64,000 nt of DNA from Alcanivorax sp. 24 (lineage in GTDB: Bacteria; Pseudomonadota; Gammaproteobacteria; Pseudomonadales; Alcanivoracaceae): positions 1-64,000 of the forward strand of contig NZ_SNUA01000002.1 of assembly GCF_004360225.1 (NCBI RefSeq), given 5' to 3'. Numbering within the stretch: position 1 is the stretch's first letter; each line of letters begins with the position of its first letter. Position numbers and translations under genes: made by a program. The notes below the pieces were generated by a model, which saw only the letters and a list, made by a program, of their open reading frames with translations, was not told the DNA's origin and ran no database searches. This document shows positions 1,887-17,170 of this stretch, piece after piece.

Positions 1887-3149
1887 TTATACCTCGAACT
1901 TGTCGTTCAGCTTTTTCGGCACCGCGGCCAGTTTCAGCTTGGCGAACTGCGGCAGGCCGTTTTTGTAGGGCGGGTAGGACTCGCCCTCGATCAGCGGTGC
2001 CAGGTACTCGCGGGCGGACGGGGTGATGCCGAAACCGTCCTTGGTGATGAACTTGCGCGGCATTTTCTTTTCCACGTTGGCCACCTTCTTCAGCGGTGCC
2101 TCACCGATGGTCCAGCCGTACTTCTTGGTTTTCTTGCGCTCGATGGTGGGCATCACGGCATTCTTGCCGGCCACGGCGAATTCCACCGCCGCGCGGCCCA
2201 CCGCGTAGGCCTGCTCCACATCAGTGGCGGAGGCGATATGGCGCGCCGCCCGCTGCAGATAGTCACTGACCGCCCAGTGGTATTTATAGCCCAACTCGTT
2301 TTTCACCAACTGTGCCAGCACCGGCGCCACGCCGCCCAGTTGTTTGTGGCCGAAGGCATCGGTGGTGCCGGCGTCCGCCAGGAAGGTACCGTCGGCGGTG
2401 CGGGCTCCCTCCGAGACGACGATGACGCAGTAGCCTACCTTCTTCACCGTCTCGTCCACTTTCTTCAGGAACGCCTGCTGGTCGAAGGCGATTTCCGGGA
2501 ACAGGATCAAATGCGGGGCGTCCTCGTTCTGCTCCTTGGCGAGACCGGCGGCGGCGGCGATCCAGCCGGCGTGGCGGCCCATCACTTCCATTACGAACAC
2601 CTTGGTGGAGGTGGCGCACATGCTGGCCACGTCCAGGGCCGCCTCACGGCAGCTCACCGCGGTGTATTTGGCGACGGAGCCGAAGCCCGGGCAGACATCG
2701 GTGATCGGCAGGTCGTTATCCACGGTTTTCGGTACGTGGATCGCCTGGATCGGATAGCCCATGGTCTTGGACAACTGCGAAATCTTCAGGCAGGTATCGG
2801 CGGAGTCGCCACCGCCGTTGTAGAAGAAGTAGCCGATGTCGTGGGCCTTGAAGACTTCGATCAGACGCTCGTATTCGCGCTGGGAAGTTTTCAGGTCCTT
2901 CAGCTTGTAGCGGCAGGAACCGAAGGCGCCACCGGGGGTGTGCTTGAGCGCGGCGATGGCGCTCTTGCTTTCCTTGCTGGTGTCGATCAGATCCTCGGTG
3001 AGGGCACCGATGATGCCGTTACGACCGGCATAGACCTTGCCGATCACGCCCTTGTGGGCGCGGGCGGTTTCGATCACTCCCGCCGCGGAGGCGTTGATCA
3101 CGGCGGTAACCCCGCCGGACTGTGCGTAAAAGGCGTTTCTGGACCCCAT
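1887..3149 (-). CDS. pfp: Pyrophosphate-dependent 6-phosphofructokinase
   Basis: The product (420 aa) phosphorylates fructose 6-phosphate reversibly using pyrophosphate, a cytoplasmic step of glycolysis/gluconeogenesis. The N-terminal YAQSGGVTAVIN loop, GGGDS at 112-116 and PKTVDNDLP at 140-148 are PFK active-site motifs. The lysine in PKTVDND, where ATP-dependent enzymes have PGTIDND, supports PPi use. The length is usual for the bacterial PPi-type of the clade with about 400-420 residues. It stands alone on the minus strand with the truncated receptor downstream and a divergent membrane-protein gene upstream. The phosphoryl donor is inferred from motifs. Confidence 0.92.
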   Translation of the reverse strand: MGSRNAFYAQSGGVTAVINASAAGVIETARAHKGVIGKVYAGRNGIIGALTEDLIDTSKESKSAIAALKHTPGGAFGSCRYKLKDLKTSQREYERLIEVFKAHDIGYFFYNGGGDSADTCLKISQLSKTMGYPIQAIHVPKTVDNDLPITDVCPGFGSVAKYTAVSCREAALDVASMCATSTKVFVMEVMGRHAGWIAAAAGLAKEQNEDAPHLILFPEIAFDQQAFLKKVDETVKKVGYCVIVVSEGARTADGTFLADAGTTDAFGHKQLGGVAPVLAQLVKNELGYKYHWAVSDYLQRAARHIASATDVEQAYAVGRAAVEFAVAGKNAVMPTIERKKTKKYGWTIGEAPLKKVANVEKKMPRKFITKDGFGITPSAREYLAPLIEGESYPPYKNGLPQFAKLKLAAVPKKLNDKFEV

Positions 3150-3289
3150 TGCAAACTCCCTGAGCTGGCCGCGCCGGCGCGGCGGCCTACCGTTGAAATC
3201 GCGCGCATTCTAGCGGAAAAGGCACCGGCCTGTCCCCCGGGATGGTGTCCGGCTGCCGGCTCTGGAACAATAGCGCTCCGGGAGGAGAT

Positions 3290-3808
3290 ATGAACGCTTT
3301 GATTCGTCTGTTCTGGCGCCTGAGTTTGTTTCGCAAGGGGCCGGAGGATATGCCCTATGCGCCGCCGTTGCTGGTGATCCTGCTGGTGGCCTGGCTGATC
3401 ATGCAGGGGCTCAGTGCCAATCTGCAGACCAGCCTGCCCGCCGGGCAGTTGATCGCCGTGCAGTGGATTTCGCTGTCGCTGGTCACCGCCGTCACCACCG
3501 CCGCGCTGGCCTTCAAGAGCTTGCTGACACGCTGGGTGCAAACCATGATGGCACTGCTGGGGCTGGACCTGTTGCTGTCCCTGGTGGCGTTGCCGTTGCT
3601 GGTCGTCAACATGGCCGCGGCACAGCCGATCCCGATCATCGATGGTCTCTACTTCATGCTGGTGAGCTGGCAACTGGCGGTGCAGAGTTTTATCTATCAC
3701 CGTTCCCTGGATGTCAGCCCGCTGCTGGGCCTGGCGCTGGCGTTCTCCCTGCTGATTCTCACCTATATGACGCTGGCGGCGTTCATGCCGGAGGTGCTGA
3801 ACCGCTGA
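3290..3808 (+). CDS. Small inner-membrane protein of unknown function
   Basis: I do not recognise this 172-residue protein. It shows about four to five hydrophobic helices: near 24-42 (LLVILLVAWLIMQG), 55-75, 84-112 and 120-165. There are few charged residues between them, so it is probably an integral inner-membrane protein. The overall look recalls YIP1-type membrane proteins, but that is not firm. The start ATG at 3290 is preceded by a good GGAGGA six bases upstream. An in-frame ATG 16 codons earlier lacks such a site. It is monocistronic and divergent from pfp, with a REP pair downstream. Confidence 0.75.
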   Translation: MNALIRLFWRLSLFRKGPEDMPYAPPLLVILLVAWLIMQGLSANLQTSLPAGQLIAVQWISLSLVTAVTTAALAFKSLLTRWVQTMMALLGLDLLLSLVALPLLVVNMAAAQPIPIIDGLYFMLVSWQLAVQSFIYHRSLDVSPLLGLALAFSLLILTYMTLAAFMPEVLNR

Positions 3809-3841
3809 CGCGGCTGCGCCGCCCGCGGAGAAAGCCACGGA

Positions 3842-3917
3842 GCCGCCGTGGGAAGCTTGCTTGCAAGCGAATGTTTTGGTTCGGGCCCAGTATTCGCTTG
3901 CAAGCAAGCTTCCCACA
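3842..3917. repeat. REP-like paired palindrome, copy 2
   Basis: Arm GTGGGAAGCTTGCTTGCAAG...CGAAT faces arm ATTCGCTTGCAAGCAAGCTT...CCCACAG across about 20 bases. It lies between the convergent membrane-protein gene and the response-regulator gene, where it could also act as a bidirectional terminator. Confidence 0.8.
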
Positions 3918-3935: not shown

Positions 3936-4841
3936 CTATACCCCGAGACACCCCAGCGCCATGGCCGCCGCCGAGGTGCGGTTTTCCACTCCCAGTTTGC
4001 GGAACACCTGCTCCAGGTGCTTGTTCACGGTACGCGGACTCAGAGTCAGAATCTGGCCGATTTCCCGGTTGGTTTTGCCCTGGGCGATCCACAGCAGCAC
4101 CTGAGCTTCCCGGGGCGTCAGCCGCAACTGGGCGCGCAAACGCTCCGCGCCTTCCTCCTCGTCGTGCTGATGAATACGGAACAGAAATTCGCCGGCGGTG
4201 ACCTCGCCGAGAAAACGCAGGCGAAAGGTGGCGCCACCGTCGCTGACGGTGTGCAGATCCGACGGTTGCGGCGCCCGGCCGAGCCAGTCCACGATGTGCC
4301 GCGCCAGCAGCGCCAGCCAGGTGTCGCGACCGCCGGCGCCATCGTCAAGCAACTGCTCCGCCTGCGGTGTTGCCCATTGCCAGCGGCCGTCGCGGTCGGT
4401 GGAGAAGGCGGCCTGGGCGAAGCGGTCCAGGGCGCTGCGGGCGCTTTGGGTCTGGCGGGCATTGGTCAGGTGCACACGAATGCGGGCGATCAACTCCGAG
4501 GGACGCACCGGCTTGGTGACGTAGTCCACGCCACCGGCTTCCAACCCGCGCACCACATCCTCGGCGTCGCTGAGGCCGGTCATGAAGATCACCGGAATCA
4601 ATGCCAGCGCTGGCTGGCTTTTCAATCGCCGGCAGGTCTCGAAGCCGTCCATATGCGGCATCATCGCGTCCAGCAGAATCAGATCCGGCACCATCTTTTC
4701 AGCAATATTGAGTGCCTGCTGACCGTCCAGCGCGAGCAGGGCGGTCAAATCCGCCTGTTCCAGGGCTTGATGAATCATGCCCAGGGAGTCCGGGGAATCG
4801 TCCACCACCAGGATCAGGTCCTTGCGATCGGGTTGGCTCAT
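3936..4841 (-). CDS. LuxR-family two-component response regulator
   Basis: The 301-residue cytoplasmic DNA-binding regulator has a receiver domain (about 8-125) with the acidic pocket VVDDS and phospho-acceptor D58 in LILLDAMMP. A linker of about 100 residues, possibly a degenerate PAS-like domain, is followed by a LuxR/FixJ helix-turn-helix (about 235-298: LTPREAQVLLWIAQGKTNRE and VNKHLEQVFRKLGVENR). Its ATG overlaps the stop of the upstream hybrid kinase by four bases, so the two are translationally coupled cognate partners. The pair is divergent from the urt/ami/fmd cluster, and control of that cluster is inferred from position. Confidence 0.9.
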   Translation of the reverse strand: MSQPDRKDLILVVDDSPDSLGMIHQALEQADLTALLALDGQQALNIAEKMVPDLILLDAMMPHMDGFETCRRLKSQPALALIPVIFMTGLSDAEDVVRGLEAGGVDYVTKPVRPSELIARIRVHLTNARQTQSARSALDRFAQAAFSTDRDGRWQWATPQAEQLLDDGAGGRDTWLALLARHIVDWLGRAPQPSDLHTVSDGGATFRLRFLGEVTAGEFLFRIHQHDEEEGAERLRAQLRLTPREAQVLLWIAQGKTNREIGQILTLSPRTVNKHLEQVFRKLGVENRTSAAAMALGCLGV

Positions 4842-7800
4842 GGCGCGCGCTCCAGTACTTGGATCACCTGATGGAAATCGAAGCGGCGCAGGGAGGCGGT
4901 CAGCGTCGCGGCCAGCGGTTCCGGCAGATGCCGGTCCCGGAGGGCGCGTTCCAGACGTTCCTGCAAGCCCCGCAAGTGGCCGATTTCGGCCAGGGCCACC
5001 AACTCGTCACGCAGTGCCTTGTCCAACGGCGGGATGGAGGCATCGCCGGCGGGTGATGCCGGCGGGCGATGTTCCCAGTCCAGGCGGAGGTGTCGGGCCA
5101 GGGTTTCCAGCAGCGCGCTCAGTTTGAACGGTTTCACCAGATAATCGTCGTGGGGGCTGTCACTGAAGGCGTTGGCATGGGCGGCTTCGCGGGCGTTGGC
5201 GGACAGCATCACGATCGGCGCCGGGCAGCCGGCCTGGCGCAGGGCCTGGGTGGTTTGCCAGCCGTTCAGGCCGGGCATGGCCACGTCCATCAGAATCAGA
5301 TCCGGAAGGCTCTGGGCCTGCATCGCCAGGGCGGTGCGGCCGTCCGGGGCCTCCAGCACCTGAAAACCCAATGGGGTGAGCAGATCACTGATCAGACCAC
5401 GGTGGGACGGGTCGTCGTCCACCACCAGCAGGGTGCGGCGCGGGCCCCGGTAACCGTGCACCGGGCGGGTCGGTTCGCGGTCCTGATCGCGGTTGTGCGC
5501 CAGGCTGGAAAGCATCACCGAGAGCCGGAACTCGCTGCCTTGTCCCGCGATGCTGTTGACCTGGATGTCGCCGCCCATGATATCGGCCAGCAGCTTGGTG
5601 ATGGTCAGGCCCAGACCGGTGCCGTGAACCACCGGCATGCCCGGTTTGCGTACCCGCTCGAACGGCCGGAAGATGCGCGCCTGGTCCTCCTCGGCGATAC
5701 CGACACCAGTGTCGCGCACGATGAACTCCGCCACCTGGGAACGATAGCGGAAGTGCAGAGTGACCTGGCCCCGGTCGGTGAATTTGATGGCGTTGGATAA
5801 CAGATTGATCAGAATCTGGCGTAAGCGCTTCTCGTCGGTGGCCACCCATTCCGGGATGCGCCCTTGCGGCTTGAACTCGAAGCCGATGCCCTTGTCCTCC
5901 GCCTGCAGCCGGAACATGGTCACCAGCTCGTCGATCAGCGCCGGTACCCGCACCCGGTTACGGTACAGCTCCAGTCTGCCGGCCTCGATCTTGGAGATCT
6001 CCAGCAACCCTTCGATCAGGTCGGAGAGATGGCCAGTACTGCGACGGATGGCGGCAACGGCGTCCCGGCGGTTGTCTGGAATGGCGGGATCGTGCTCCAG
6101 CAATTGGGCATAACCGTAGGCGGCGTTCAACGGGGAACGAAGCTCGTGGCTGAGACCGGTGAGATAGCGGCTCTTGGCCTGATTGGCGGCCTCCGCCAGC
6201 TCCTTGGCTTTCTGCAGTTCGCGATCGGTTTTTTCGTGGGCCCTGATCTCCGCCATCAGGGCGCGGGTTTGTTTCTGGGTTTCTTCCTCTGCTACCCGGC
6301 GGCTTTCGTGGGCGAGCACGAACAGCCACGCCACCACGCCGCTCATGATCACCAGAATCACGAACAGCTTGGCCAGGGTCGCGGCCAGCACCGCCCGTGC
6401 CGGCGGTTCGCCGGCGGCGGCCTGGTAATAAACCAGTGTCAGAAAGGCGGCCAGCAGTGACGTCACCACCAGTAGCAGGCCGAGAAAATGCCCTATGCGG
6501 GTGCGCAGGTGGTTGAGGGCACGATCCGGCAGGATGCCCGCGAGCCAGCCCATCAGTTGCTGCTGGAAGCGGGCATCCTGCTTGCAACTGTCGTGGCAGC
6601 GGGCGTCCAGCGAACAGCACAGCGAACAGATCGGTCCGTTGTAGGCGGGGCAGAATGCCATGTCTTCCTGGTCGAAGGCATGTTCGCAGATACAACAGGG
6701 TTTGCCCTCCACCGACTCCGGCCATGACGGTGGCCGGGCGATGTAGTAGCGCCCTCCGGTGGCCACGGCGATCAGCGGCGCGGACAGGAAGGCGGTGAAC
6801 AGGGTGATGAACGAGGCCAGTGCCTCGCAGGTGGCGCCCAGCGCGCCGGCCTTGCAGGCCAGGCCCACCAGGGTGGCCAGCAGCATGGCACCGCAGCCCA
6901 CCGGATTGAGGTCATACAGATAGGCGCGTTTGAACTCGATGTGTTTGGGACTCAAACCGAGCGGTTTGTTGATCACCAGGTCCGCCACCAGGGCGCCGAT
7001 CCAGGCCACCGCCACCATGGCGTAGCTGCTCAGAATTGACTCGAACGCCCGATAAATGCCGATCTCCATCAGCAACAGCGCGATCATCACGTTGAACACC
7101 AGCCACACCACCCGGCCGGGGTGGCTGTGGGTCAGGCGTGAAAAAAAATTGGACCAGGCGATGGAGCCGGCGTAGGCATTGGTGACGTTGATCTTCAGCT
7201 GCGACAACACCACGAAAATACCGGCCAGCGCCAGCAGGGCGGCCGGGTGGCTGGTGACGTGAGAAAACGCCATCAGGTACATGTGCATCGGCTCCTGGGC
7301 CTGGCTTTGCGGCAGACCGTGGTGCATCGCCAATACCACCAGAAAGGAGCCGGCCAGTGCCTTGAGGGCGCCGACCACGATCCAGCCGGGGCCGCCGGCA
7401 AGCATGGCCGCCCACCAGCGAACCCGGGTGGCGGAGGTCTTCTCCGGCATGAAACGAAGAAAATCCACTTGCTCACCGATCTGCGCCACCAGCGAGAACA
7501 ACACCGTGGAGGCGGCGCCGAACAGTAGCAGATCGAAACCGCCGTGACTGGTGCTGCCTCCGGGGAACTGGAACCAGCGGTCCAGGGACTGCGGGTCCTG
7601 CCAGAGAATGAACACGAACGGCAGTAAGTGCAGGATAACCCAGAATGGCTGGGTCCAGGCCTGGAACCGGGTGAGATAGGTGATGCCATGGGTCACCAGT
7701 GGAATCACCACCACGGAGCTGATTACGTAGCCCAACGTCAGCGGCAGGCCGAACAGGACTTCCAGGGCCATCGCCATGATCGCCGATTCCAGAGCGAAGA

Positions 7801-8179
7801 AGATGAAGGTGAAGGACGCGTAGATCAGCGACGCGATGGTCGAACCCAGGTAGCCGAAACCAGCGCCGCGGGTGAGAAGATCAATGTCGACACCGTCGCG
7901 GGCGGCGTAGTAGCTGACCGGGACGCCGAGCAGGAAGATAGTGACGCTGAATACGGCGATGGCCCAGGCCGCGTTGGTGAAACCATGGTTAAGGGTAATG
8001 GCGGCGCCGATCGCCTCCAGGGCGAGAAACGAGATCGCGCCCAGGGCGGTCAGCGCCACCCGCCCCGGTGACCAGCGCCGGGCGGACTTGGCGGTGAACC
8101 GCAGGGCGTAGTCCTCCAGAGTCTGATTGGCGACCCATTGGTTGTAGTTACGTCGGACCGGAAAGATTCGTTGCTGCAT
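4838..8179 (-). CDS. NCS1-type permease domain fused to hybrid sensor histidine kinase
   Basis: This is a 1113-residue membrane protein (from ATG 8179; a longer in-frame ATG lies at 8245). Residues about 35-480 form a polytopic segment resembling NCS1 nucleobase/cation symporters. Residues 495-532 hold a cluster of cysteines (C495, C496, C498, C510, C518, C521, C522, C528, C532) that may bind a metal. Two more membrane helices follow (about 562-625), then a coiled coil. The kinase core has H678 in GLSHELRSPLN, the N box (about 792-800), DTGVGI (823-828) and GTGLGL (853-858). A receiver domain has D965 in LILMDVAMPG, and a C-terminal helical part may be Hpt-like. Permease-kinase fusions such as CbrA (with an SLC5 domain) are known. 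Here the permease probably senses a urea/amide-type compound, judging by the divergent cluster. Confidence 0.88.
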   Translation of the reverse strand: MQQRIFPVRRNYNQWVANQTLEDYALRFTAKSARRWSPGRVALTALGAISFLALEAIGAAITLNHGFTNAAWAIAVFSVTIFLLGVPVSYYAARDGVDIDLLTRGAGFGYLGSTIASLIYASFTFIFFALESAIMAMALEVLFGLPLTLGYVISSVVVIPLVTHGITYLTRFQAWTQPFWVILHLLPFVFILWQDPQSLDRWFQFPGGSTSHGGFDLLLFGAASTVLFSLVAQIGEQVDFLRFMPEKTSATRVRWWAAMLAGGPGWIVVGALKALAGSFLVVLAMHHGLPQSQAQEPMHMYLMAFSHVTSHPAALLALAGIFVVLSQLKINVTNAYAGSIAWSNFFSRLTHSHPGRVVWLVFNVMIALLLMEIGIYRAFESILSSYAMVAVAWIGALVADLVINKPLGLSPKHIEFKRAYLYDLNPVGCGAMLLATLVGLACKAGALGATCEALASFITLFTAFLSAPLIAVATGGRYYIARPPSWPESVEGKPCCICEHAFDQEDMAFCPAYNGPICSLCCSLDARCHDSCKQDARFQQQLMGWLAGILPDRALNHLRTRIGHFLGLLLVVTSLLAAFLTLVYYQAAAGEPPARAVLAATLAKLFVILVIMSGVVAWLFVLAHESRRVAEEETQKQTRALMAEIRAHEKTDRELQKAKELAEAANQAKSRYLTGLSHELRSPLNAAYGYAQLLEHDPAIPDNRRDAVAAIRRSTGHLSDLIEGLLEISKIEAGRLELYRNRVRVPALIDELVTMFRLQAEDKGIGFEFKPQGRIPEWVATDEKRLRQILINLLSNAIKFTDRGQVTLHFRYRSQVAEFIVRDTGVGIAEEDQARIFRPFERVRKPGMPVVHGTGLGLTITKLLADIMGGDIQVNSIAGQGSEFRLSVMLSSLAHNRDQDREPTRPVHGYRGPRRTLLVVDDDPSHRGLISDLLTPLGFQVLEAPDGRTALAMQAQSLPDLILMDVAMPGLNGWQTTQALRQAGCPAPIVMLSANAREAAHANAFSDSPHDDYLVKPFKLSALLETLARHLRLDWEHRPPASPAGDASIPPLDKALRDELVALAEIGHLRGLQERLERALRDRHLPEPLAATLTASLRRFDFHQVIQVLERAP

Positions 8180-8492
8180 GTCAGCGTCGTTCACCCACCC
8201 GAATGGAAGTGGTGCGCGGTCCCTGGGCACCGTGCACAGTGTCAAAGTCTCTTCGACTAAAGGTTCTGCAAATAGAAAGAAGCAGGATTCGTGCCCAATC
8301 TTTGGTCACGGGCTGTCTTTATTTCCCGGGCCCGACGGTACCCCCCCGGGTGGCGGGCGGCCTATGGGGAAAATGACGTATAGGCCTGACCCAATCACCG
8401 AATGGGCCGCCCGCCGGCCCTTTCCCATACTCGTTGCCAATGACCGCCGGTCCTGGAGCCGGTCGGTCCGAACCGCTGACGAGGGGAAGACC
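8180..8492. promoter_or_regulatory. Divergent control region between the sensor kinase and urtA
   Basis: This 313-base gap separates two divergent transcription units and must hold both promoters. It contains a 24-base dyad at 8361-8384 and a GC-rich inverted pair GGCGGGCGGC / GGGCCGCCCGCC around it. I could not assign clear -35/-10 or -24/-12 elements by eye. Nothing in it looks like a gene. Confidence 0.5.
8361..8384. promoter_or_regulatory. Dyad-symmetric putative regulator site upstream of urtA
   Basis: The site reads CCTAT at its left edge and ATAGG at its right edge, with an AT-richer centre (GGGGAAAATGACGT) inside GC-rich surroundings. It lies about 110 bases upstream of the urtA start. 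The symmetry and position suit a LuxR-type response-regulator operator. The binding protein is inferred from the adjacent two-component pair. Confidence 0.4.
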
Positions 8493-9734
8493 ATGACGAG
8501 AGCAAAGGTAACGGCGCCGGGTTTGAAACGGCGATTGGGGTGGGCCGGTCTGCTGGCCTGGGCCGCGTTGGGGTTGCCCGGGGTAAGTGGGGCCGATGAG
8601 GTCAACAGCACCGGCCTGGCGGTGACCGACGATACCGTCAAGGTGGGGATCCTGCATTCCATCACCGGCACCATGGCGATCAGTGAAACCGGCTCGGTGC
8701 AGGCGGAAAAACTGGCTATCGAACAGATCAACGCCCAAGGCGGGGTGCTGGGTCGCAAGATCGAGTACATCCAGGAGGACGGCGCCAGTGACTGGCCCAC
8801 CTTCGCCGAGAAAGCCCGCAAGCTGCTGGTCAATGACAAGGTGGCGACGGTGTTCGGCTGCTGGACATCGGCGTCCCGCAAGGCGGTTCTGCCGGTGTTC
8901 GAGCAGTACAACGGCATGCTTTATTACCCGACCTTCTATGAAGGATTGGAACAATCACCGAACGTGATCTACACCGGCCAGGAAGCGACGCAACAGATCC
9001 TCGCCAGTATCGACTGGGTGGTGAAGGAGAAAGGCGCCAAGACCTTCTACCTGCTCGGCTCCGACTACATCTGGCCGCGCACCTCCAACAAGATCGCTCG
9101 CAAGCACATCGAGAAGAAAGGTCTGAAAGTGGTGGGTGAGGAGTACTACCCGCTGGGCCACACTCAGTTCAACTCGGTGATCAACAAGATCAAGCTGCGC
9201 AAGCCGGACGTTATCTTTGCTTCCGTGGTGGGGGGCTCCAACGTGGCGTTCTATAAGCAGCTCAAGGCCGCCGGCATCGATCTGACCAAGGAAAAGCCGC
9301 TGCTGCTGACCATCTCCGTCACCGAGGATGAAATCCTCGGCATCGGCGGCGAGAACGTGGAAGGCGCCTACGCTTCCATGAAGTACTTCCAGAGCCTGAA
9401 TAACCCCAACAACGAAGCGTTCGTGAAAGCGTTCAAGGAGCGTTGGGGTGATGACATCGTGATCGGCGATGTGACCCAGGCGGCTTATCTCGGTCCCTGG
9501 CTGTGGAAGGCGGCGGTGGAGGAAGCCGGCTCTTTCGACGTCGACAAGATCCGTGAAGTGTTCCCGGGCATTGAACTGAAAACGGCACCGGAAGGCTATG
9601 TCCGCATCCATGAGAATCACCACCTGTGGTCCAAGGCACGCATTGGCCAGGCGCAAAAAGACGGCCAGTACAAAGTGGTGTACGAGACCGAGGATCTGAT
9701 GGAGCCGGATCCGTTCCCCGAAGGTTACAAGTAA
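8493..9734 (+). CDS. urtA: Urea/short-chain amide ABC transporter, substrate-binding protein
   Basis: The 413-residue periplasmic protein has a signal peptide (KRRLGWAGLLAWAALGLPGVSGA) and a type I periplasmic-binding fold of the Leu/Ile/Val family, beginning VKVGILHSITGTMAISE. The motif FGCWTSASRKAVLPVFE and the YPTFYEG stretch are typical of the UrtA/FmdD group that captures urea or short-chain amides for UrtBCDE. The ATG at 8493 has GAGGGGA upstream; upstream in-frame codons would lengthen the N-terminus by 105 residues without a signal. It leads the urtABCDE-amiE-amiB-fmdA-fmdB cluster. The amidase genes that follow leave open whether urea, formamide or acetamide is the main ligand. Confidence 0.92.
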   Translation: MTRAKVTAPGLKRRLGWAGLLAWAALGLPGVSGADEVNSTGLAVTDDTVKVGILHSITGTMAISETGSVQAEKLAIEQINAQGGVLGRKIEYIQEDGASDWPTFAEKARKLLVNDKVATVFGCWTSASRKAVLPVFEQYNGMLYYPTFYEGLEQSPNVIYTGQEATQQILASIDWVVKEKGAKTFYLLGSDYIWPRTSNKIARKHIEKKGLKVVGEEYYPLGHTQFNSVINKIKLRKPDVIFASVVGGSNVAFYKQLKAAGIDLTKEKPLLLTISVTEDEILGIGGENVEGAYASMKYFQSLNNPNNEAFVKAFKERWGDDIVIGDVTQAAYLGPWLWKAAVEEAGSFDVDKIREVFPGIELKTAPEGYVRIHENHHLWSKARIGQAQKDGQYKVVYETEDLMEPDPFPEGYK

Positions 9735-9800: not shown

Positions 9801-10727
9801 ATGTTCGCTGATTATTCCATGCCGGAGCTGATGTCGATTTTCGCCATGCAAGGCTTTGCCGGCTTGTCGTTGTTTTCCATTTTCGTGCTGATGGCTCTGG
9901 GGCTGGCGATTATTTTCGGCCAGATGGGCGTCATCAACATGGCCCACGGTGAGTTCATGATTCTGGGGGCCTACACCACCTACCTGACCGCCGGTCTGTT
10001 TGAAAATGTGATGCCCGGTCTGTACGGCATTTATTTCTTTGTCGCCATGTTCCTCGCGTTCATTGCCAGCGCTCTGCTGGGAATGCTGGTGGAATGGTTG
10101 ATGATACGCCATCTGTACCACCGGCCGCTGGATACCCTGTTGGCCACCTGGGGGCTGAGTCTGATCCTGCAGCAGGCTTATCGCTCGATCTTCGGTGCCC
10201 GCGAAGTGGGGGTGAGCCTGCCGGACTGGATGATGGGCTCCATCGCCGTTACCGACCTGGTGGAAATTCCCATCAACGGCCTGATCGTGATGGTGGTGAC
10301 GCTGGTCATCGCCACGCTGGTCTATCTGTTGATGTTCCGTTCCGGCTGGGGCCGTCAGGTGCGCGCGGTGGTGCAGAACCGGCCCATGGCGGAAGCGGTA
10401 GGGATTGATACCGGCAAAGTGGACCGGATCACCTTTGCCCTGGGCTGCGGTATCGCCGGCGTGGCCGGAGCGGCGTTCACCATGATCGGGTCCACCGGTC
10501 CCACTTCCGGGCAGTTGTACATCGTCGACACTTTCCTGGTGGTGGTGTTCGGCGGCGCGCAAAGTCTGCTCGGCACCATCGCATCCGCGTTCACCATTTC
10601 CCAGGCCCAGTCCACCATGGAATTCTTCCTCAGCGGTTCCATGGCCAAGGTACTGACGTTGCTGGTGGTGGTGGGCATTCTCATGTTGCGTCCTCAGGGT
10701 TTGTTCGCCCTCAAGGTTCGCCGTTAG
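9801..10727 (+). CDS. urtB: Urea/amide ABC transporter, permease subunit 1
   Basis: The 308-residue integral membrane protein is of the LivH/UrtB family. It has hydrophobic helices throughout and the conserved NMAHGEFMILGAYT segment near residues 50-63. It pairs with UrtC to form the transmembrane channel for the ligand delivered by UrtA. The start ATG has GGGAGA upstream. The cytoplasmic coupling loop is near 185-215 (RAVVQNRPMAEAVGID), and the C-terminus RPQGLFALKVRR is typical. The gene lies 66 bases after urtA beyond the hairpin, and urtC follows after nine bases. Confidence 0.92.
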   Translation: MFADYSMPELMSIFAMQGFAGLSLFSIFVLMALGLAIIFGQMGVINMAHGEFMILGAYTTYLTAGLFENVMPGLYGIYFFVAMFLAFIASALLGMLVEWLMIRHLYHRPLDTLLATWGLSLILQQAYRSIFGAREVGVSLPDWMMGSIAVTDLVEIPINGLIVMVVTLVIATLVYLLMFRSGWGRQVRAVVQNRPMAEAVGIDTGKVDRITFALGCGIAGVAGAAFTMIGSTGPTSGQLYIVDTFLVVVFGGAQSLLGTIASAFTISQAQSTMEFFLSGSMAKVLTLLVVVGILMLRPQGLFALKVRR

Positions 10728-10736
10728 GAGGCCGTG

Positions 10737-11888
10737 ATGAAAACCACTCCATCCGCATCGTCATTGATGTCCCGGGAGAATCTCTATTTCCTGGTGTTGG
10801 CGGCACTGCTGTTGCTGGTGTTTCCCGTGCTTTTGGACGCCTTCCGTCTCAACCTGGTGGGCAAGTACCTGACCTACGCCTTCGTCGCCGTGGGGCTGGT
10901 ATTGTGCTGGGGCAAGGGTGGCATTCTCAGTCTCGGTCAGGGTGTTTTCTTCGGGCTGGGCGGCTATTGCATGGCCATGTTTCTGAAGCTGGAAGCGTCC
11001 AGTCCCGAGGCTACCGCCAGCCAGTCCACGCCGGGCATTCCCGACTTCATGGACTGGAACCAGGTCACCGAGCTGCCCTGGTTCTGGCAGCCGTTCCACA
11101 GCTTCTCCTTCACTCTGATCGCGGTGGTGATGGTGCCGGTGATCCTCGCCTTGATCATCGGCGTGGCCATGTTCAAGCGGCGCGTCGGTGGCGTTTATTT
11201 CGCCATCATTACCCAAGCGATCGCCGCCATTCTCACCATCCTCATCATCGGCCAGCAGGGCTTCACCGGCGGCGCCAATGGCATCACCGACCTGCGCACG
11301 CTGATGGGCTGGGATATTCGCGGCAATGAAGCCAAGACAGTGCTGTACTTCGTGACCGCCGGTTTGCTGTTGGCCTGCGTGTTGCTGGCCCGGCATGTGC
11401 TGGGCAGCAAACTCGGCCGCATCCTGGTGGCGATGCGGGACCAGGAAGACCGGGTTCGCTTCTCTGGTTACGACGTGGCCTCGTTCAAGGTGTTCGTGTT
11501 CTGTCTGGCGGCGGCGCTGTCCGGCATCGGCGGCGCCCTGTTCACCTTGCAGGTGGGCTTCATGTCGCCGTCCTTTGTCGGCATCGTGCCGTCCATTGAA
11601 ATGGTGATCTTCTGCGCCGTGGGCGGGCGTCATTCATTGCTCGGCGCGGTATATGGCGCGCTGTTGGTGAACGCGGCGAAAACCGGGTTCTCCGAATCCT
11701 TTCCGGAACTCTGGTTGTATGCCATGGGCGCGCTGTTCATTGCCGTGGTGCTGGCGTTCCCCAACGGTATTGCCGGTTTGTATCAGCGTTATCTGATGCC
11801 GCTGGAGAAAAAAATCCTGGGTGGCCTGGGTAAAGCGGCCAGAACACCGTCCACGGCTCCGGCCCGTCAGATGGAGGAAACCCCATGA
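10737..11888 (+). CDS. urtC: Urea/amide ABC transporter, permease subunit 2
   Basis: The 383-residue integral membrane protein is of the LivM/UrtC family. The segment CWGKGGILSLGQGVFFGLGGYCMAM (split across helices 2-3) and the IGGALFTLQVGFMSPSFVGI region are family hallmarks. It forms the second half of the membrane pore. AGGAGG ends five bases before ATG 10737; a GTG one codon earlier is too close to that site. The stop overlaps the urtD start by four bases, indicating coupled translation. Confidence 0.92.
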   Translation: MKTTPSASSLMSRENLYFLVLAALLLLVFPVLLDAFRLNLVGKYLTYAFVAVGLVLCWGKGGILSLGQGVFFGLGGYCMAMFLKLEASSPEATASQSTPGIPDFMDWNQVTELPWFWQPFHSFSFTLIAVVMVPVILALIIGVAMFKRRVGGVYFAIITQAIAAILTILIIGQQGFTGGANGITDLRTLMGWDIRGNEAKTVLYFVTAGLLLACVLLARHVLGSKLGRILVAMRDQEDRVRFSGYDVASFKVFVFCLAAALSGIGGALFTLQVGFMSPSFVGIVPSIEMVIFCAVGGRHSLLGAVYGALLVNAAKTGFSESFPELWLYAMGALFIAVVLAFPNGIAGLYQRYLMPLEKKILGGLGKAARTPSTAPARQMEETP

Positions 11889-12631
11889 GCACGTCCCGGG
11901 ATTTTATCCTCACCGTGGAAGGGCTGACGGTGTCCTTCGATGGCTTCAAGGCGGTCAACGACCTGTCCCTGTATCTGGAACATAACGAGATCCGCGTCAT
12001 CATCGGACCCAACGGTGCTGGCAAGACCACGGTGCTCGATCTGATTTGCGGTAAGACCCGGGCCACCGATGGCGCCATCCGTTTCAAAGGGCAGGATCTG
12101 ACGCGGATGAAGGAGCACCAGATCGTTCGCTCCGGGGTGGGGCGCAAGTTCCAGAATCCGTCCATTTATGACGACCTCACCGTGTTCGAGAACCTGGAAG
12201 TGTCCTATCCGCGCGGGCGTTCAGTGATGGGGGCACTGGCATTCCGTCGTGATCAGCAGGTCATCGACGCGGTCCACGAGGTGGCGGAGACCATTTTTCT
12301 GGCGGATCAACTGGACCGCCGTGCCGATCTGCTCAGCCATGGACAAAAACAGTGGCTGGAGATCGGCATGCTGCTGATCCAGGAACCGGATCTGTTGATG
12401 TTGGACGAGCCGGTGGCGGGCATGTCGGTAGCGGAGCGTAAGAAAACCGCTGAGTTGCTCAAAGTGATAACCCGCAATCACACCGTGTTGGTGATCGAGC
12501 ACGACATGCAGTTCGTCGGTGACATCGCCGATCGTGTCACCGTGATGCACCAGGGGCAGGTGTTGTCCGAAGGTTCCCTGGCCCACGTCAAAGCCGACCC
12601 GAAAGTGGTCGAAGTCTACCTGGGACACTGA
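11885..12631 (+). CDS. urtD: Urea/amide ABC transporter, ATP-binding subunit 1
   Basis: The 248-residue cytoplasmic ATPase is of the LivG/UrtD type. Walker A is GPNGAGKT (about 44-51), the signature motif is the degenerate LSHGQKQWLEIGM, and Walker B is LLMLDEPVAGM. The variant SHGQ signature is usual in UrtD. It couples ATP hydrolysis to import with UrtE. Its start overlaps the urtC stop (ATGA), and urtE begins two bases after its stop. Confidence 0.92.
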   Translation: MSTSRDFILTVEGLTVSFDGFKAVNDLSLYLEHNEIRVIIGPNGAGKTTVLDLICGKTRATDGAIRFKGQDLTRMKEHQIVRSGVGRKFQNPSIYDDLTVFENLEVSYPRGRSVMGALAFRRDQQVIDAVHEVAETIFLADQLDRRADLLSHGQKQWLEIGMLLIQEPDLLMLDEPVAGMSVAERKKTAELLKVITRNHTVLVIEHDMQFVGDIADRVTVMHQGQVLSEGSLAHVKADPKVVEVYLGH

Positions 12632-12633
12632 TC

Positions 12634-13323
12634 ATGCTGAGATTGCAAAACTACTCCGTGGCTTACGGCCAGAGTGAGGTGATCCATGACTTGCAACTGG
12701 ACGTGGGCGAGAACGAGATTGTCGCCGTGGTCGGCCGCAATGGCATGGGCAAGACCACGTTGATGAAATCCATGGTCGGCATGGTGCCGGCCAGAGAGGG
12801 CGTGTTGTCCATGCTGGGCGTTGATCTGATGCCGCTGAAAAGCCATCAAAGAGTCAAGGCCGGGCTCGGCTTCGTGCCGCAAGGAAGGATGATCTTTCCC
12901 ACTTTGACGGTGAAGGAAAATATCGAGACCGGCCTGGCCGCTTCCGGCCGCAAGGGCATTCCCTCGGATTTATACGAGCTGTTCCCGGTGCTCAAGGATA
13001 TGGCGTCACGCAAAGGCGGCAACCTGTCCGGCGGGCAGCAGCAACAGCTGGCCATAGCGCGTGCCCTGGCCACCGATCCCAAGGTGCTGATTCTCGATGA
13101 ACCCACCGAGGGGATCCAGCCCTCCATCATCCAGGAGCTGGCGCGAACGCTGCGAAAAATCCGCGATACACGTGGGCTTTCCATTCTGGTATCCGAACAG
13201 GTGTTGAGCTTTGTCATGGACGTGTCGGATCGCATTCTGGTGATCGAGAAAGGACGCTTCGTGCATGAAGAGGACCGGGAAGGCGCGAACCAGAAAAAAA
13301 TCGCCGCCTATCTGGCGGTCTGA
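12634..13323 (+). CDS. urtE: Urea/amide ABC transporter, ATP-binding subunit 2
   Basis: The 229-residue cytoplasmic ATPase is of the LivF/UrtE type. Walker A is GRNGMGKTT, the signature is [15 protein letters not shown], and Walker B is [15 protein letters not shown]. The GRNGMGKTT form and the EGIQPSII stretch are characteristic of UrtE. It completes the transporter and lies 17 bases before amiE, so transporter and amidase are probably co-transcribed. Confidence 0.92.
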
Positions 13324-13340: not shown

Positions 13341-14387
13341 ATGCGTCATGGTGATATTTCCAGTAGTGCCGACACCGTCGGCGTGGCGGTGGTGAACTAC
13401 AAAATGCCGCGTCTGCACTCCCGTGAAGAAGTGCTGGACAACGCGCGTCACATCGCCGGGATGATCAAGGGTATGAAGCTCGGATTGCCGGGCATGGACC
13501 TGGTGGTGTTCCCCGAATACAGCACCATGGGGATCATGTACGACCCCGGCGAAATGATGGCCACCGCCGCCACCGTGCCGGGCGATGAAACCGATATTTT
13601 CGCCGCCGCCTGCCGCGAGGCGAACACCTGGGGGGTGTTCTCGCTCACTGGTGAGCGCCATGAAGACCATCCCCACAAGGCGCCGTATAACACGCTGGTG
13701 CTGATCGATAACCAGGGACGCATTGTGCAGAAATACCGCAAGTGCATCCCCTGGTGCCCGATCGAGGGCTGGTATCCCGGTGACAGCACCTACGTTACCG
13801 AAGGGCCGAAAGGGCTGAAGATCAGTCTGATTATCTGTGACGACGGTAACTATCCGGAGATCTGGCGGGATTGTGCCATGAAGGGCGCGGAGTTGATCGT
13901 GCGTTGTCAGGGCTATATGTATCCGGCCAAGGAACAGCAGATCATGATGGCCAAGACCATGGCCTGGGCCAACAACTGCTACGTGGCGGTGGCCAACGCC
14001 ACCGGCTTTGACGGGGTCTATTCCTACTTCGGGCATTCCGCTCTGGTCGGTTTCGATGGCCGTACCCTGGGGGAATGCGGTGAAGAGGAGATGGGCGTGC
14101 AATACGCTCAGCTTTCCGTCAGCCAGATCCGTGATGCCCGCGCCAACGATCAGTCCCAGAACCATCTGTTCAAGTTGCTGCATCGCGGCTATACCGGTGT
14201 GCACAACTCCGGTGACGGTGACAAGGGCGTGGCCGATTGTCCATTCGATTTTTATCGAACCTGGGTGCTGGACGCGCGGAAAGCGCAGGAACAGGTGGAA
14301 GCCATGACCCGCGATACGGTTGGCGTGGCGGACTGTCCGGTGGGGAATCCGCCGGTGCCGGAAAAGGAAAGGGCGGCGGGGGAGTAG
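13341..14387 (+). CDS. amiE: Aliphatic amidase (acylamide amidohydrolase)
   Basis: The 348-residue cytoplasmic nitrilase-superfamily enzyme hydrolyses short-chain amides such as acetamide and propionamide to acid and ammonia. The catalytic triad is visible: E59 (VVFPEYS), K134 (QKYRKCIPW) and C166 ([14 protein letters not shown]). The N-terminus [20 protein letters not shown] and overall length match the Pseudomonas aeruginosa AmiE family very closely. A GAGGAGA site precedes the ATG. The gene sits directly behind the transporter and before amiB, as in the amiEB part of the P. aeruginosa amidase operon; no amiC/amiR/amiS genes are present here, so control must differ. Confidence 0.96.
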
Positions 14388-14393
14388 ACGCCG

Positions 14394-15464
14394 GTGCCTT
14401 TCATCAACGAACGCCTGATGGAGCAGGCGGAGTCCCGGCCACCGCCGGTGACACCGGGGGCCCGCGCCTCCCGATTCCAGTTCGAGCCGGATCAGGTGAT
14501 GGCGCGGCTGAGTGCCCGCATCGTCGGTCAGGATCCGGTGCTGGCGGATCTGGAAGCGATGCTGACGCGGATCAAAGCGGATATTTCGGATCCGGAACGG
14601 CCCTTGGCGGTGCACCTGTTTGTCGGGCCCACCGGTGTTGGCAAGACCGAAACCGCACGGCTGCTGGCCGAGGCGTTGCACGGTCGCGCCGACGCGCTGT
14701 GCCGGGTGGATATGAACACCCTGGCCCAAGAGCACTATGCCGCCGCTCTCATCGGTGCGCCACCTGGATATGTCGGTAGTAAGGAAGGACATACCCTGCT
14801 GGATGAGGAGCGGCTGCGCGGCACTTTCCGCAAACCGGGAGTGGTGCTGTTTGACGAAATTGAAAAGGCTGACGTCCGGGTAATACGGGCTTTGATGAAC
14901 GTGCTGGATCATGGCCGGCTGGCTTTGTCCGCCGGCACCCGGGAGCTGGATTTCCGCAATAGCCTGATCTTCATGACCAGCAATCTCGGTGCCCGTGAAG
15001 CGCAGACCCGATTGGCGCGCTATCGCCGAGGCTGGCGTCGTTGGCTGGCGTTGCGCCCGACGGCGACGGAGCGCATCCCGGAGCAGGCGGTGCGTGAGTA
15101 TTTCGATCCCGAGTTCATCAATCGCATCGACCGTATTCACTATTTTCAACCGCTGGACCCACAACGGGCCGACGGGTTACTGGAAATGGAGCTGGATCGT
15201 CTGGCGGACCGACTGCAAAGAAGAGACGTTTCTCTGTCCTGGCAACCGGCGGCGCGGACCCGATTCCGTGCGGGGCAGGACATCCGCTATGGCGCCCGCG
15301 ACCTGCGGCGACGCCTGCGCAATGAGCTGGAGCCGAAGGTGGCCGCGGCTATGTTCAGCCATCCCGGCATTCATCGATTCCTGGTACGAACCACCGGTGG
15401 TACCTTGGAGATCGTGCCGGTAATGGAGACCGACCCCCGCGACGGACTACGTCATACAACGTAG
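14394..15464 (+). CDS. amiB: ClpB-type AAA+ ATPase of the amidase operon
   Basis: The 356-residue cytoplasmic AAA+ protein corresponds to a single ClpA/B D2-like module: Walker A GPTGVGKTE (78-86), pore-loop region PPGYVGSKEG (124-133), Walker B VVLFDEIEKA (151-160), sensor MTSNLGA and a D2-small domain with the GARDLRRRL arginine motif. It lacks the first ATPase ring and the M-domain of full ClpB. In P. aeruginosa amiB lies between amiE and amiC and its exact task is unclear; folding or assembly of the hexameric amidase is a reasonable inference. The start is a GTG six bases after the amiE stop. Confidence 0.85.
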   Translation: MPFINERLMEQAESRPPPVTPGARASRFQFEPDQVMARLSARIVGQDPVLADLEAMLTRIKADISDPERPLAVHLFVGPTGVGKTETARLLAEALHGRADALCRVDMNTLAQEHYAAALIGAPPGYVGSKEGHTLLDEERLRGTFRKPGVVLFDEIEKADVRVIRALMNVLDHGRLALSAGTRELDFRNSLIFMTSNLGAREAQTRLARYRRGWRRWLALRPTATERIPEQAVREYFDPEFINRIDRIHYFQPLDPQRADGLLEMELDRLADRLQRRDVSLSWQPAARTRFRAGQDIRYGARDLRRRLRNELEPKVAAAMFSHPGIHRFLVRTTGGTLEIVPVMETDPRDGLRHTT

Positions 15465-15540: not shown

Positions 15541-15595
15541 TTCATGATCCCTGCCGAGGCATGGGATGACGACGTTGAGCGGAGGGAAGCACACC

Positions 15596-16825
15596 ATGGC
15601 TGAGACCATCATTAAAATTGATCTGAACAAGTCCCCGTACGAGAACGAGAAAGTACATAACCGGTGGCATCCGGATATTCCCATGGCCGCCATGGTGAAA
15701 CCCGGTGATGACTTCATCGTGGAATGCCACGACTGGACTGGCGGGCAAATCAACAACGACGACAACGCCGAGGACGTTCGCGACGTGGACCTGACTCAGG
15801 TGCATTTCCTGTCCGGCCCGGTGGGTGTGGAAGGCGCCGAGCCCGGAGATCTGCTGGTGGTGGACATTCTCGACATCGGCACTTTCCAGGAAAGCCAGTG
15901 GGGTTTCAACGGCTTCTTTTCCAAACAAAATGGTGGCGGCTTTCTGACCGAGCACTTTCCGGAAGCGCAGAAAACCATCTGGGACTTCAATGGCATGTTC
16001 ACCAAATCCCGCCACATTCCCGGCGTGGAATTCGCCGGTCTGATCCACCCGGGATTGATTGGCTGCCTGCCGTCCAAGAGCATGCTGGACGAATGGAACA
16101 AGCGGGAAAAAGAACTTTATGATACCGATCCGGACCGGGTGCCCGGTCTGGTGAACCTGCCGTTCGCGGATACCGCGCACATGGGCAAGCTGAACGGTGA
16201 CGCCCGCAATGCCGCCGCCGCGGAAGGCGCGCGGACGGTGCCGCCGAGGGAGCATGGCGGTAACTGCGATATCAAGGATCTTTCCCGTGGCTCGCAAATT
16301 TATTTTCCGGTGTATGTGAAGGACGCGGGATTGTCCGTGGGGGATCTTCACTTCAGCCAGGGGGATGGCGAGATCACCTTCTGCGGCGCCATTGAAATGG
16401 CTGGCTGGATTCACATGCGTGTGAATCTGATCAAAGGCGGCATGGAAAAATACGCGATCAAGAACCCGATCTTCAAACCCAGCCCGATGGCGCCGAAGTA
16501 CGATGACTATCTGATCTTCGAAGGTATTTCCGTGGACGAGGAGGGCAAGCAACACTACCTGGACGTGCATATTGCGTATCGCCAGGCTTGCCTCAACGCC
16601 ATCGAGTACCTGAAGAAATTCGGTTATTCCGGTGCCCAGGCCTATTCGCTGTTGGGATGCGCGCCGGTGCAGGGCCACATCAGCGGCGTGGTGGACGTGC
16701 CCAACGCCTGCGCCACCTTATGGCTGCCCACTGATATCTTCGATTTCGATCTCAAACCGGGAGTCGATGGCCCGCAACACAGCGTGGCCGGTTCCATGGA
16801 CGTACCGCTGGCGAAAGATAAATAG
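15596..16825 (+). CDS. fmdA: Formamidase (acetamidase/formamidase family)
   Basis: The 409-residue cytoplasmic enzyme hydrolyses formamide to formate and ammonia. It belongs to the FmdA/AmdA family, distinct from the nitrilase fold of AmiE. The family segments HNRWHPDIP, VECHDWTGGQI, GPVGVEGAEPGDLLVVDI and GGNCDIKDLSRGSQIYFPV are all present, and the length matches the about 407 residues of the Methylophilus enzyme. The ATG at 15596 has GGAGGG ten bases upstream; the earlier ATG at 15566 would add ten atypical residues. fmdB follows 12 bases downstream, the same pair as in Methylophilus methylotrophus. Confidence 0.95.
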   Translation: MAETIIKIDLNKSPYENEKVHNRWHPDIPMAAMVKPGDDFIVECHDWTGGQINNDDNAEDVRDVDLTQVHFLSGPVGVEGAEPGDLLVVDILDIGTFQESQWGFNGFFSKQNGGGFLTEHFPEAQKTIWDFNGMFTKSRHIPGVEFAGLIHPGLIGCLPSKSMLDEWNKREKELYDTDPDRVPGLVNLPFADTAHMGKLNGDARNAAAAEGARTVPPREHGGNCDIKDLSRGSQIYFPVYVKDAGLSVGDLHFSQGDGEITFCGAIEMAGWIHMRVNLIKGGMEKYAIKNPIFKPSPMAPKYDDYLIFEGISVDEEGKQHYLDVHIAYRQACLNAIEYLKKFGYSGAQAYSLLGCAPVQGHISGVVDVPNACATLWLPTDIFDFDLKPGVDGPQHSVAGSMDVPLAKDK

Positions 16826-16837
16826 GGGAGGGCAGTG

Positions 16838-17170
16838 ATGCCGTTATACGATTACAAATGCGCGAACCATGGACTGTTTCATGCCCTGGTGGCGGTGACG
16901 GAATCCGGCATCGCCCGCGCCTGTCCACAATGCGATGAACTGGCTCCCCGGGTGATCATGGTGCCGCCGGAAGTGCTCGACATGGCACCGGCCCGTCGTC
17001 AGGCCATGGAACGCAACGAACGCGCCGCCCACGAACCCCGACGCGGCAACGACCACAGCGAAAAGGAACAGGGCTGCTGCCATCACGCCAAACCCTCGCC
17101 GAAAGTGTTCTACACCGCCGACGGCAAGAAAATGTTCCCTTCCGCACGGCCGTGGATGATCAGCCACTGA
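16838..17170 (+). CDS. fmdB: FmdB-like zinc-ribbon protein
   Basis: The 110-residue protein starts MPLYDYKC, the hallmark of the FmdB/CxxC zinc-ribbon family, with a second metal-binding pair CPQC. The first pair is altered: CANHG has His where most members have a second Cys, so the ribbon would be C-H-C-C. A His/Cys-containing tail (CCHHAK) follows. FmdB was described as a regulatory protein for formamidase in Methylophilus, and its position right after fmdA fits that. The ATG at 16838 has GGGGAGGG upstream; a GTG one codon earlier is less likely. Confidence 0.85.
   Translation: MPLYDYKCANHGLFHALVAVTESGIARACPQCDELAPRVIMVPPEVLDMAPARRQAMERNERAAHEPRRGNDHSEKEQGCCHHAKPSPKVFYTADGKKMFPSARPWMISH

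Follow-up and report, generated by a model that had tools for sequence, protein, structure and literature searches.

What does a histidine kinase sense when its N-terminal half looks like a transporter and its neighbours are genes of an amide operon? The question is raised by a locus of Alcanivorax sp. 24 in a stretch of 64,000 nucleotides (contig NZ_SNUA01000002.1, positions 1 to 64,000; hereafter the window), where a single open frame of 1113 residues runs on the minus strand from 4838 to 8179. Its translation, its Pfam matches and a predicted model describe a hybrid histidine kinase composed of an NCS1-like permease domain, a module of eight conserved cysteines, a two-helix hairpin, a HisKA/HATPase core and a receiver. 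We favour, with moderate confidence, the reading that this is a membrane receptor kinase derived from a transporter that would induce the adjoining amide operon, formamide or acetamide being likelier ligands here than urea.

An NCS1-like permease domain fused to a hybrid kinase

Pfam recognises only the kinase half of the protein, with the HisKA dimerisation and phospho-acceptor domain at residues 668–734 (PF00512, positions 5978–6178, His678), HATPase_c at 781–888 (PF02518, 5516–5839) and the receiver at 918–1027 (PF00072, 5099–5428, Asp965), all on the minus strand like the rest of the gene. The next gene (3936–4841, minus strand) shares 4 bases with the end of the kinase gene and encodes a LuxR/NarL-type response regulator with Response_reg and GerE matches and Asp58; HisKA, HATPase, receiver and adjoining regulator, the parts of a hybrid kinase with a paired regulator, are thus all present. 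In front of the kinase half lie the permease domain (about residues 18–476, 6752–8128), the cysteine module (residues 495–532, 6584–6697) and the hairpin leading into the kinase (about residues 561–620, 6320–6499). The AlphaFold2 model, built with 59 sequences (predicted local distance difference test (pLDDT) 85.8, predicted template modelling score (pTM) 0.88), has a helical permease fold up to about residue 476 and, after the cysteine module, helices at 561–587 and 592–639; judged from its sequence, the hairpin is taken to be membrane-spanning. An earlier prediction, made from the letters of the window alone (the original prediction), had described a 1113-residue protein with two further helices, a histidine kinase core and a receiver, coupled by overlap to a LuxR regulator and divergent from urt, ami and fmd genes. 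Translation, Pfam and the model agree with this description, and urtA, urtB, urtC, amiE and fmdA lie on the other strand, each above its curated NCBIfam cut-off.

The permease part has no Pfam match of its own, and its assignment to NCS1 is therefore indirect. In a genome of the same genus, a stand-alone transporter shares 28% identity with the whole window domain (E 1e-34) and itself passes PF02133 (36.4 bits, cut-off 23.5), and the NCBIfam cytosine permease model NF008241 matches 14 of 39 family members (best E 5.7e-9), the window protein not being among them. A Foldseek search with the predicted model returned Mhp1 and CodB entries as its top five matches (best E 2.9e-10). Structure comparison of model residues 20–476 gave a Z of 35.3 over 397 residues for CodB and 29.1 for Mhp1, against 24.6 for the next family, and 22.8 and 22.6 for two SLC5-type structures, the CHT1 choline transporter and a sialic acid symporter. 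Alignment by hhalign with seven NCS1-related proteins reached 99.8% (E 2.2e-27); five of the seven, however, came from a search with the window domain, and of these five, two lack a PF02133 match and one falls below its cut-off. When only E. coli CodB and AllW were used, the value fell to 3.6% (E 0.012), collinear across 400 columns, and a control with three E. coli SSS proteins (PutP, ActP and PanF) gave 0.3% and was not collinear. What carries the claim is thus the fold together with the chain of homology through the stand-alone relative; in combination they identify the N-terminal domain, by computation, as probably NCS1-like though divergent.

Several results weigh against this ancestry, among them the weak alignment with CodB and AllW. 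No NCS1 (PF02133) or SSS/SSF Pfam match was found at E ≤ 5 in residues 1–640 of the 39 homologues, although the miss of SSF is weak on its own, since PF02133 was missed as well in the same members. In its own genome, PF02133 matches another gene only and not the kinase, and the family sequence profile matched no NCS1 structure among the PDB sequences. The NCS1-type permease of the original prediction therefore holds by the homologue chain and the CodB/Mhp1 fold, but not by the hidden Markov model search against NCS1 and SSS that it had proposed. The PF02133 cut-off is a detection threshold rather than a mechanistic feature, hence the label "NCS1-like". Two further matches to PDB sequences, one of the cysteine module to a cysteine-rich protein and one of the stand-alone relative, were at chance level and were discarded.

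Alignments of transmembrane helix 8 (TM8) place N331 at CodB N280 and Mhp1 N314, N334 at Mhp1 N318, I330 at CodB T279 and Mhp1 T313, and K329 at Mhp1 S312. Mhp1 S312, Mhp1 T313 and CodB T279 supply hydroxyls of the sodium site; these are replaced by K329-I330 in the alignments and have therefore probably been lost. The family alignment has 139 rows, 136 of them distinct: the window, 53 loci from genomes, 79 of the 80 loci of a near-relative set and 6 of the 7 plasmid loci. K329, N331 and N334, like the polar E131 and Q327, are unchanged in all 139, and I330 is kept in 138. The stand-alone relatives have Arg at the place of K329.

Gene neighbourhood and a shared promoter dyad

The family is widespread. 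Some match was found in 63 of 398 sampled Pseudomonadota genomes, and 52 carried the full domain, at 57 places (E < 1e-170), all of which were followed (the window, 41 loci and a further 15 fetched). A sample of 38 genomes of relatives gave a match in 20, and 12 of the 18 further matching genomes in it were fetched; the 41 strong-place loci and these 12, all carrying the domain, make up the 53-locus set. A search for related loci found at least 598 related stretches. Neighbourhoods were labelled amide-type when they held urt genes like those of the window, fmdA or amiE, with an identity threshold of 56% chosen after seeing the data, and urea-type when they held urease or urt genes about 37–53% identical to those of the window. 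By these labels, the 57 strong places comprise 38 flanked by amide-type genes, 17 by urea-type urt genes or urease, and two unreadable contig ends (L209 and L219); the 12 further loci of relatives divide into 10 amide and two urea. Among the matches listed for the near-relative set, which is biased to close relatives and partly holds the same organisms as the other samples, 68 of 79 are amide, seven urea or urease and four neither (three of the four on short contigs). Two loci with full flanks, on a Tistrella plasmid (L012) and in Azospirillum (L188), adjoin neither operon type and speak against a strict association.

Urease alpha (PF00449) lies about 1–12 kb from the kinase in 15 of the 15 non-amide loci among the 53, including L087, L092, L097, L098 and L099, all of one clade; in the four urea-type loci among the 15 fetched later, it was not seen within the 20 kb fetched. 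No fetched stretch held fmdA or amiE together with urease at one locus. One locus labelled urease (L089) has urease adjoining and urtCDE like those of the window, and fmdA or amiE were not seen there. Four genomes with two copies (G158, G225, G246 and G379) have one copy beside each operon type, and a fifth (G091) has two strong copies, both near amide genes. On a tree of the 139 rows, made by a quick method, the amide/urea-type label needs five changes when five unlabelled rows are left out, and the family has therefore switched regulon several times. One locus with a broken frame (L175) was dropped from the context and tree counts, and another, short and with its frame broken in the record (L009), from the tree, cysteine and dyad counts; the structure alignment leaves out L169, L175 and rows more than 88% identical to an earlier row.

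The regulator adjoins the kinase in 51 of the 53 fetched genome loci. In the remaining two (L069 and L096), the permease and cysteine part sits on a kinase without a receiver, near fmdA; by sequence, these look like the same sensor with a different output. In L096 the next gene encodes a receiver-HisKA-HATPase protein and is followed by a formamidase. A further locus (L109, 9357–11213) encodes a family kinase without the permease domain, with remnants of the cysteine module only, facing a similar regulator; tblastn found no significant NCS1 remnant in its 20 kb. On a plasmid of Halomonas sp. PA16-9 (L009), kinase, urtB and regulator are each split into two frames, perhaps by sequencing errors. 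Of 72,556 plasmid records, 352 (337 from Klebsiella) carry a copy at least 99% identical to a Klebsiella plasmid kinase, and near-identical kinases are found in L013, L221 and plasmid records as well as in 6 of 5,426 E. coli genomes (four with at least 80% of it). In two such plasmid records that were inspected, the kinase adjoins urtABCDE and a formamidase.

A common promoter element accompanies the association. The upstream 450 bases of the kinase gene were scored in 104 divergent amide-type loci (101 distinct sequences). An exact half-site TACGTCA occurs in 74 of these, and the dyad TACGTCA-N2-TGACGTA with at most 3 mismatches in 14 is present in 73, compared with 0.5 per 104 in Markov shuffles. 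The dyad is kept in 48 of 60 loci after thinning the kinases at 80% identity, and is found in alpha-, beta- and gammaproteobacterial loci. An inverted repeat of such spacing suits a dimeric LuxR/NarL-type regulator, so that the adjoining regulator is the natural candidate to bind it. In the window, the candidate site at 8363–8380 (no strand assigned) is a degenerate copy with one half exact, and its 18-mer has a single exact occurrence in the genome. The tie of the kinase to amide and urea genes, proposed by the original prediction for this locus, thus recurs across many genomes together with a shared dyad. The role given to the dyad has to be set against four observations. Its consensus was read by eye from the same promoters in which it is counted; with at most 2 mismatches it occurs in 6 of 16 urea-labelled loci and is missing from the other 10; none of the 12 "other" loci scored has it at that stringency; and the copy in the window has 4 mismatches in 14, a score equalled or bettered in about 7.75 of 104 shuffled regions.

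The cysteine module, the ligand and rival explanations

The original prediction had placed nine cysteines in residues 495–532, and all nine are present (495, 496, 498, 510, 518, 521, 522, 528 and 532); C496, which is Cys in 64 of the 139 rows, is not conserved. The other eight, C-x2-C-x11-C-x7-C-x2-CC-x5-C-x3-C, are invariant in all 139 rows, in amide-linked and urease-linked members alike, so that the conservation set beforehand as a test holds for eight of the nine. Searching the 398 Pseudomonadota genomes with a 55-row profile of the module gave strong matches at 57 places (E up to 8.5e-20) and weak matches at two more. Compared by eye, the 57 coincide with the 57 strong permease-kinase places, and the module was therefore not found outside the family in this sample, with at most 13 candidates scored per genome. 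The structure prediction that had been called for gave a knuckle, a beta hairpin (507–510/515–518) and a short helix (519–524) in both models, a plan that may resemble a treble-clef zinc finger. What counts against a finger is that the module modelled alone reached a pLDDT of only 67 and a pTM of 0.44, and that its fold matches, mostly PHD, FYVE, RING and LIM fingers, stayed at E ≥ 0.25 and Z ≤ 3.9; Prok-RING_1 matched 2 of 39 members (best E 1.3). A coupling role as a structural zinc finger is nevertheless the most economical reading and the most likely one, and by analogy with CodB and Mhp1 the module, following the twelfth helix, would be cytoplasmic.

As to the ligand, the operon of the window suggests amides. 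On the plus strand, it comprises an urtA-type periplasmic binding protein (8493–9734; TIGR03407, 566 bits), urtB (9801–10727; TIGR03409), urtC (10734–11888; TIGR03408), urtD and urtE (11885–12631 and 12634–13323, together 11885–13323, from BLAST matches to annotated urtD/urtE of plasmid loci), the aliphatic amidase amiE (13341–14387; NF009802, 702.8 bits), the formamidase fmdA (15566–16825; NF045496, 784.5 bits) and an fmdB-like zinc-ribbon protein (16835–17170), assigned by sequence and by relatives beside formamidase annotated "zinc ribbon domain-containing protein". The urtA frame opens at 8178; its most likely start, 8493, leaves 313 bases between urtA and the divergent kinase gene. Between amiE and fmdA lies an AAA/Clp-like ATPase frame (14394–15464), which also adjoins amiE in loci of the Pseudomonas type and in the nearest relatives; we take it to resemble AmiB of the Pseudomonas amidase operon. 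On the other side of the regulator, a frame of 272 residues (3098–3916) matched nothing in Pfam (E ≤ 1) or in NCBIfam (E ≤ 0.1), and beyond it is a diphosphate-dependent phosphofructokinase (1887–3149).

No urease match was found in the genome itself, which encodes two full urea carboxylases, so that the idea of a genome unable to use urea was ruled out. A second UrtA is encoded on a different contig from the window, 0.9 kb from a urea carboxylase (G000:C6:215715-221323), a further urea carboxylase is at C2:132724-136305, and a third UrtA-like protein, below the cut-off, is on C21; within this genome the kinase N-terminus matches only the window. Because no urease was found, a urea-carboxylase/urtA pair exists elsewhere and both an amidase and a formamidase are part of the operon, the inducer here would more likely be formamide or acetamide than urea, and urea would be the likelier inducer of the urease-linked copies. 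The detector of urea, formamide or acetamide that had been proposed is thereby narrowed to formamide or acetamide in this amide-type cluster, with urea kept for urease-linked members elsewhere. According to the available part of the report on it, P. veronii Yu15 uses acetamide and formamide, and amiC and amiR were not found in its chromosomal amiE-fmdA-fmdB-urt locus, which is such a cluster, but it has a second amidase operon on a plasmid (PMC13209695). The accessible part of a 2026 preprint links the urt-amiF cluster of Klebsiella CG307 to urea (PMC13060141). Residue 320 in TM8 was considered as a position of ligand specificity, being Gly, Val or Thr in amide-linked and mostly Ala or Cys in urea-linked members. 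When seven clades were used, none of 300 random draws scored as high, but with five independent clades 35 of 500 were as high or higher, and an independent-pairs test gave a median p of 0.0625, above 0.05; the pattern is suggestive but not significant, and the claim was dropped.

Our preferred reading of the whole would run as follows. The NCS1-like domain would bind a small amide from outside, formamide or acetamide here and urea in urease-linked members, and its change of state would be relayed through the cytoplasmic eight-cysteine module and the two-helix hairpin to the kinase, the module acting as a coupler in the place held by STAC in CbrA. The kinase would then autophosphorylate on His678, and the phosphate would pass by way of its own receiver (Asp965) to Asp58 of the overlapping LuxR-type regulator, which would bind the TACGTCA-N2-TGACGTA-like dyad between the divergent units and induce urtABCDE-amiE-fmdA.

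The strongest competitor, possible though clearly less probable, is that the permease domain is itself active in transport, proton-coupled or uncoupled, and that uptake rather than binding is what the kinase senses. The CodB/Mhp1-like fold is compatible with it, as are K329 and I330 at the sodium-site hydroxyl positions, with Arg in the stand-alone relatives; CbrA likewise has a lysine, K196, in its Na2 site, according to the portion of that study at hand (PMC13022988). A dedicated ATP-binding cassette (ABC) transporter, however, already adjoins the kinase in most loci. That same transporter could itself be what the kinase reads, by way of UrtA or the flux through UrtBC, with the permease-like domain as a scaffold only. 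Transporter-kinase partnerships are known elsewhere, and kinase and urtA are divergently arranged in most amide-type loci; yet the urease-linked loci L087, L092, L097 and L098 keep the permease domain with no urt gene seen within 20 kb, L069 and L096 near fmdA keep it without a divergent urtA, and the polar residues E131, Q327, K329, N331 and N334 are completely invariant, which makes this explanation improbable.

Equally doubtful is a sensor with two inputs, in which the module would bind a metal with a regulatory role or act as a thiol redox switch, and output would need both the amide and the metal or redox condition. Its eight invariant cysteines and its place between permease and kinase would suit such a role, but invariance and the knuckle-hairpin-helix model fit a structural zinc site equally well, and redox-type genes (organic hydroperoxide resistance, nos) were noticed on one plasmid only, the neighbourhoods not having been screened for them. 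Far less credible is that the kinase senses something unrelated, such as nitrogen status, and that its neighbourhood reflects hitchhiking. The two exceptional loci with full flanks would fit it, and against it stand the 55 of 55 readable strong places that adjoin one of two related operon types, the five label changes on the tree and the promoter dyad common to many loci. A receptor for small amides with a structural coupler remains the reading that we prefer. Its boldest extension, which we regard as a long shot, would be an NCS1-derived transceptor family, widespread in proteobacteria, that reads amides or urea, has in the metal module a second input to be loaded or reduced before signalling, has been re-tuned repeatedly between amide and urease regulons, and is the unrecognised switch of the "urea" uptake cluster of Klebsiella plasmids.

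Relation to known systems

Transporter-fused kinases are already known, and the present family is a new variant among them, by its NCS1-like pairing and its cysteine module. In the SLC5-STAC kinases CbrA, CrbS and RpuS, as far as the accessible parts of the reports describe them, a linker module likewise joins a LeuT-fold secondary-transporter domain to a histidine kinase (PMC13022988, PMC9100948, PMC5715377). Here, in contrast, the permease is NCS1-like rather than SLC5, the linker is the eight-cysteine module with the two-helix hairpin, the output is a LuxR-type regulator and the neighbours are amide or urea genes. A Pfam scan of 39 members gave no STAC match, the presence of the STAC model in that Pfam copy being unchecked. 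In CbrA the transporter domain is described, in the available text, as packed on the linker module, which could relay its motions to the kinase, and this offers a working model for the relay from transporter to kinase (PMC13022988). The anammox ammonium sensor kinase Ks-Amt5 also combines a transporter-derived domain with a histidine kinase and a small nitrogen ligand, but its module is Amt and its ligand ammonium, and a cysteine module is not mentioned in the accessible parts of the two papers (PMC5764959, PMC12918730). GrtK was discarded as a relative, being, in the same source's available text, a PilS-type kinase of 427 residues (PMC12918730), and another paper was set aside as a parallel, since in the portion seen its two matching terms belong to separate genes (PMC8905175).

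CodB and Mhp1 share the fold of residues 20–476, but are stand-alone cytosine and hydantoin transporters with sodium-site hydroxyls where K329-I330 stand here. AmiC/AmiR resembles the system proposed here in its amide-responsive control of amiE, as given in the accessible text (PMC13209695), but AmiC is a sensor of the periplasmic-binding type and AmiR an RNA-binding antiterminator. The urtABCDE-formamidase clusters of Ectopseudomonas and Klebsiella ("UTS") are alike in gene content, the UTS of the preprint being equated with the present cluster by gene names alone, and one Klebsiella plasmid copy carries this kinase. For Ectopseudomonas, LuxR-type two-component genes are reported beside urt, and a hybrid kinase is named in a legend, in the available part of the paper (PMC13296017). 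Unlike the present analysis, the accessible portions of the UTS papers state urea uptake and leave the sensor domains undescribed (PMC13296017, PMC13060141). No description of an NCS1-type permease-kinase or of this cysteine module was found in the open-licence literature, which was sampled in part.

For the biology of these bacteria, the kinase is a candidate sensor for amide and urea operons for which the accessible portions of the cited papers describe no regulation. The cluster of Klebsiella has been ascribed to urea, and the present evidence suggests that amides are worth considering there too. The new pairing of transporter and kinase also provides a system for asking how a permease fold became a receptor; since its copies lie beside amide or urease operons, sometimes with one copy beside each in a single genome, ligand specificity could be compared within one fold.

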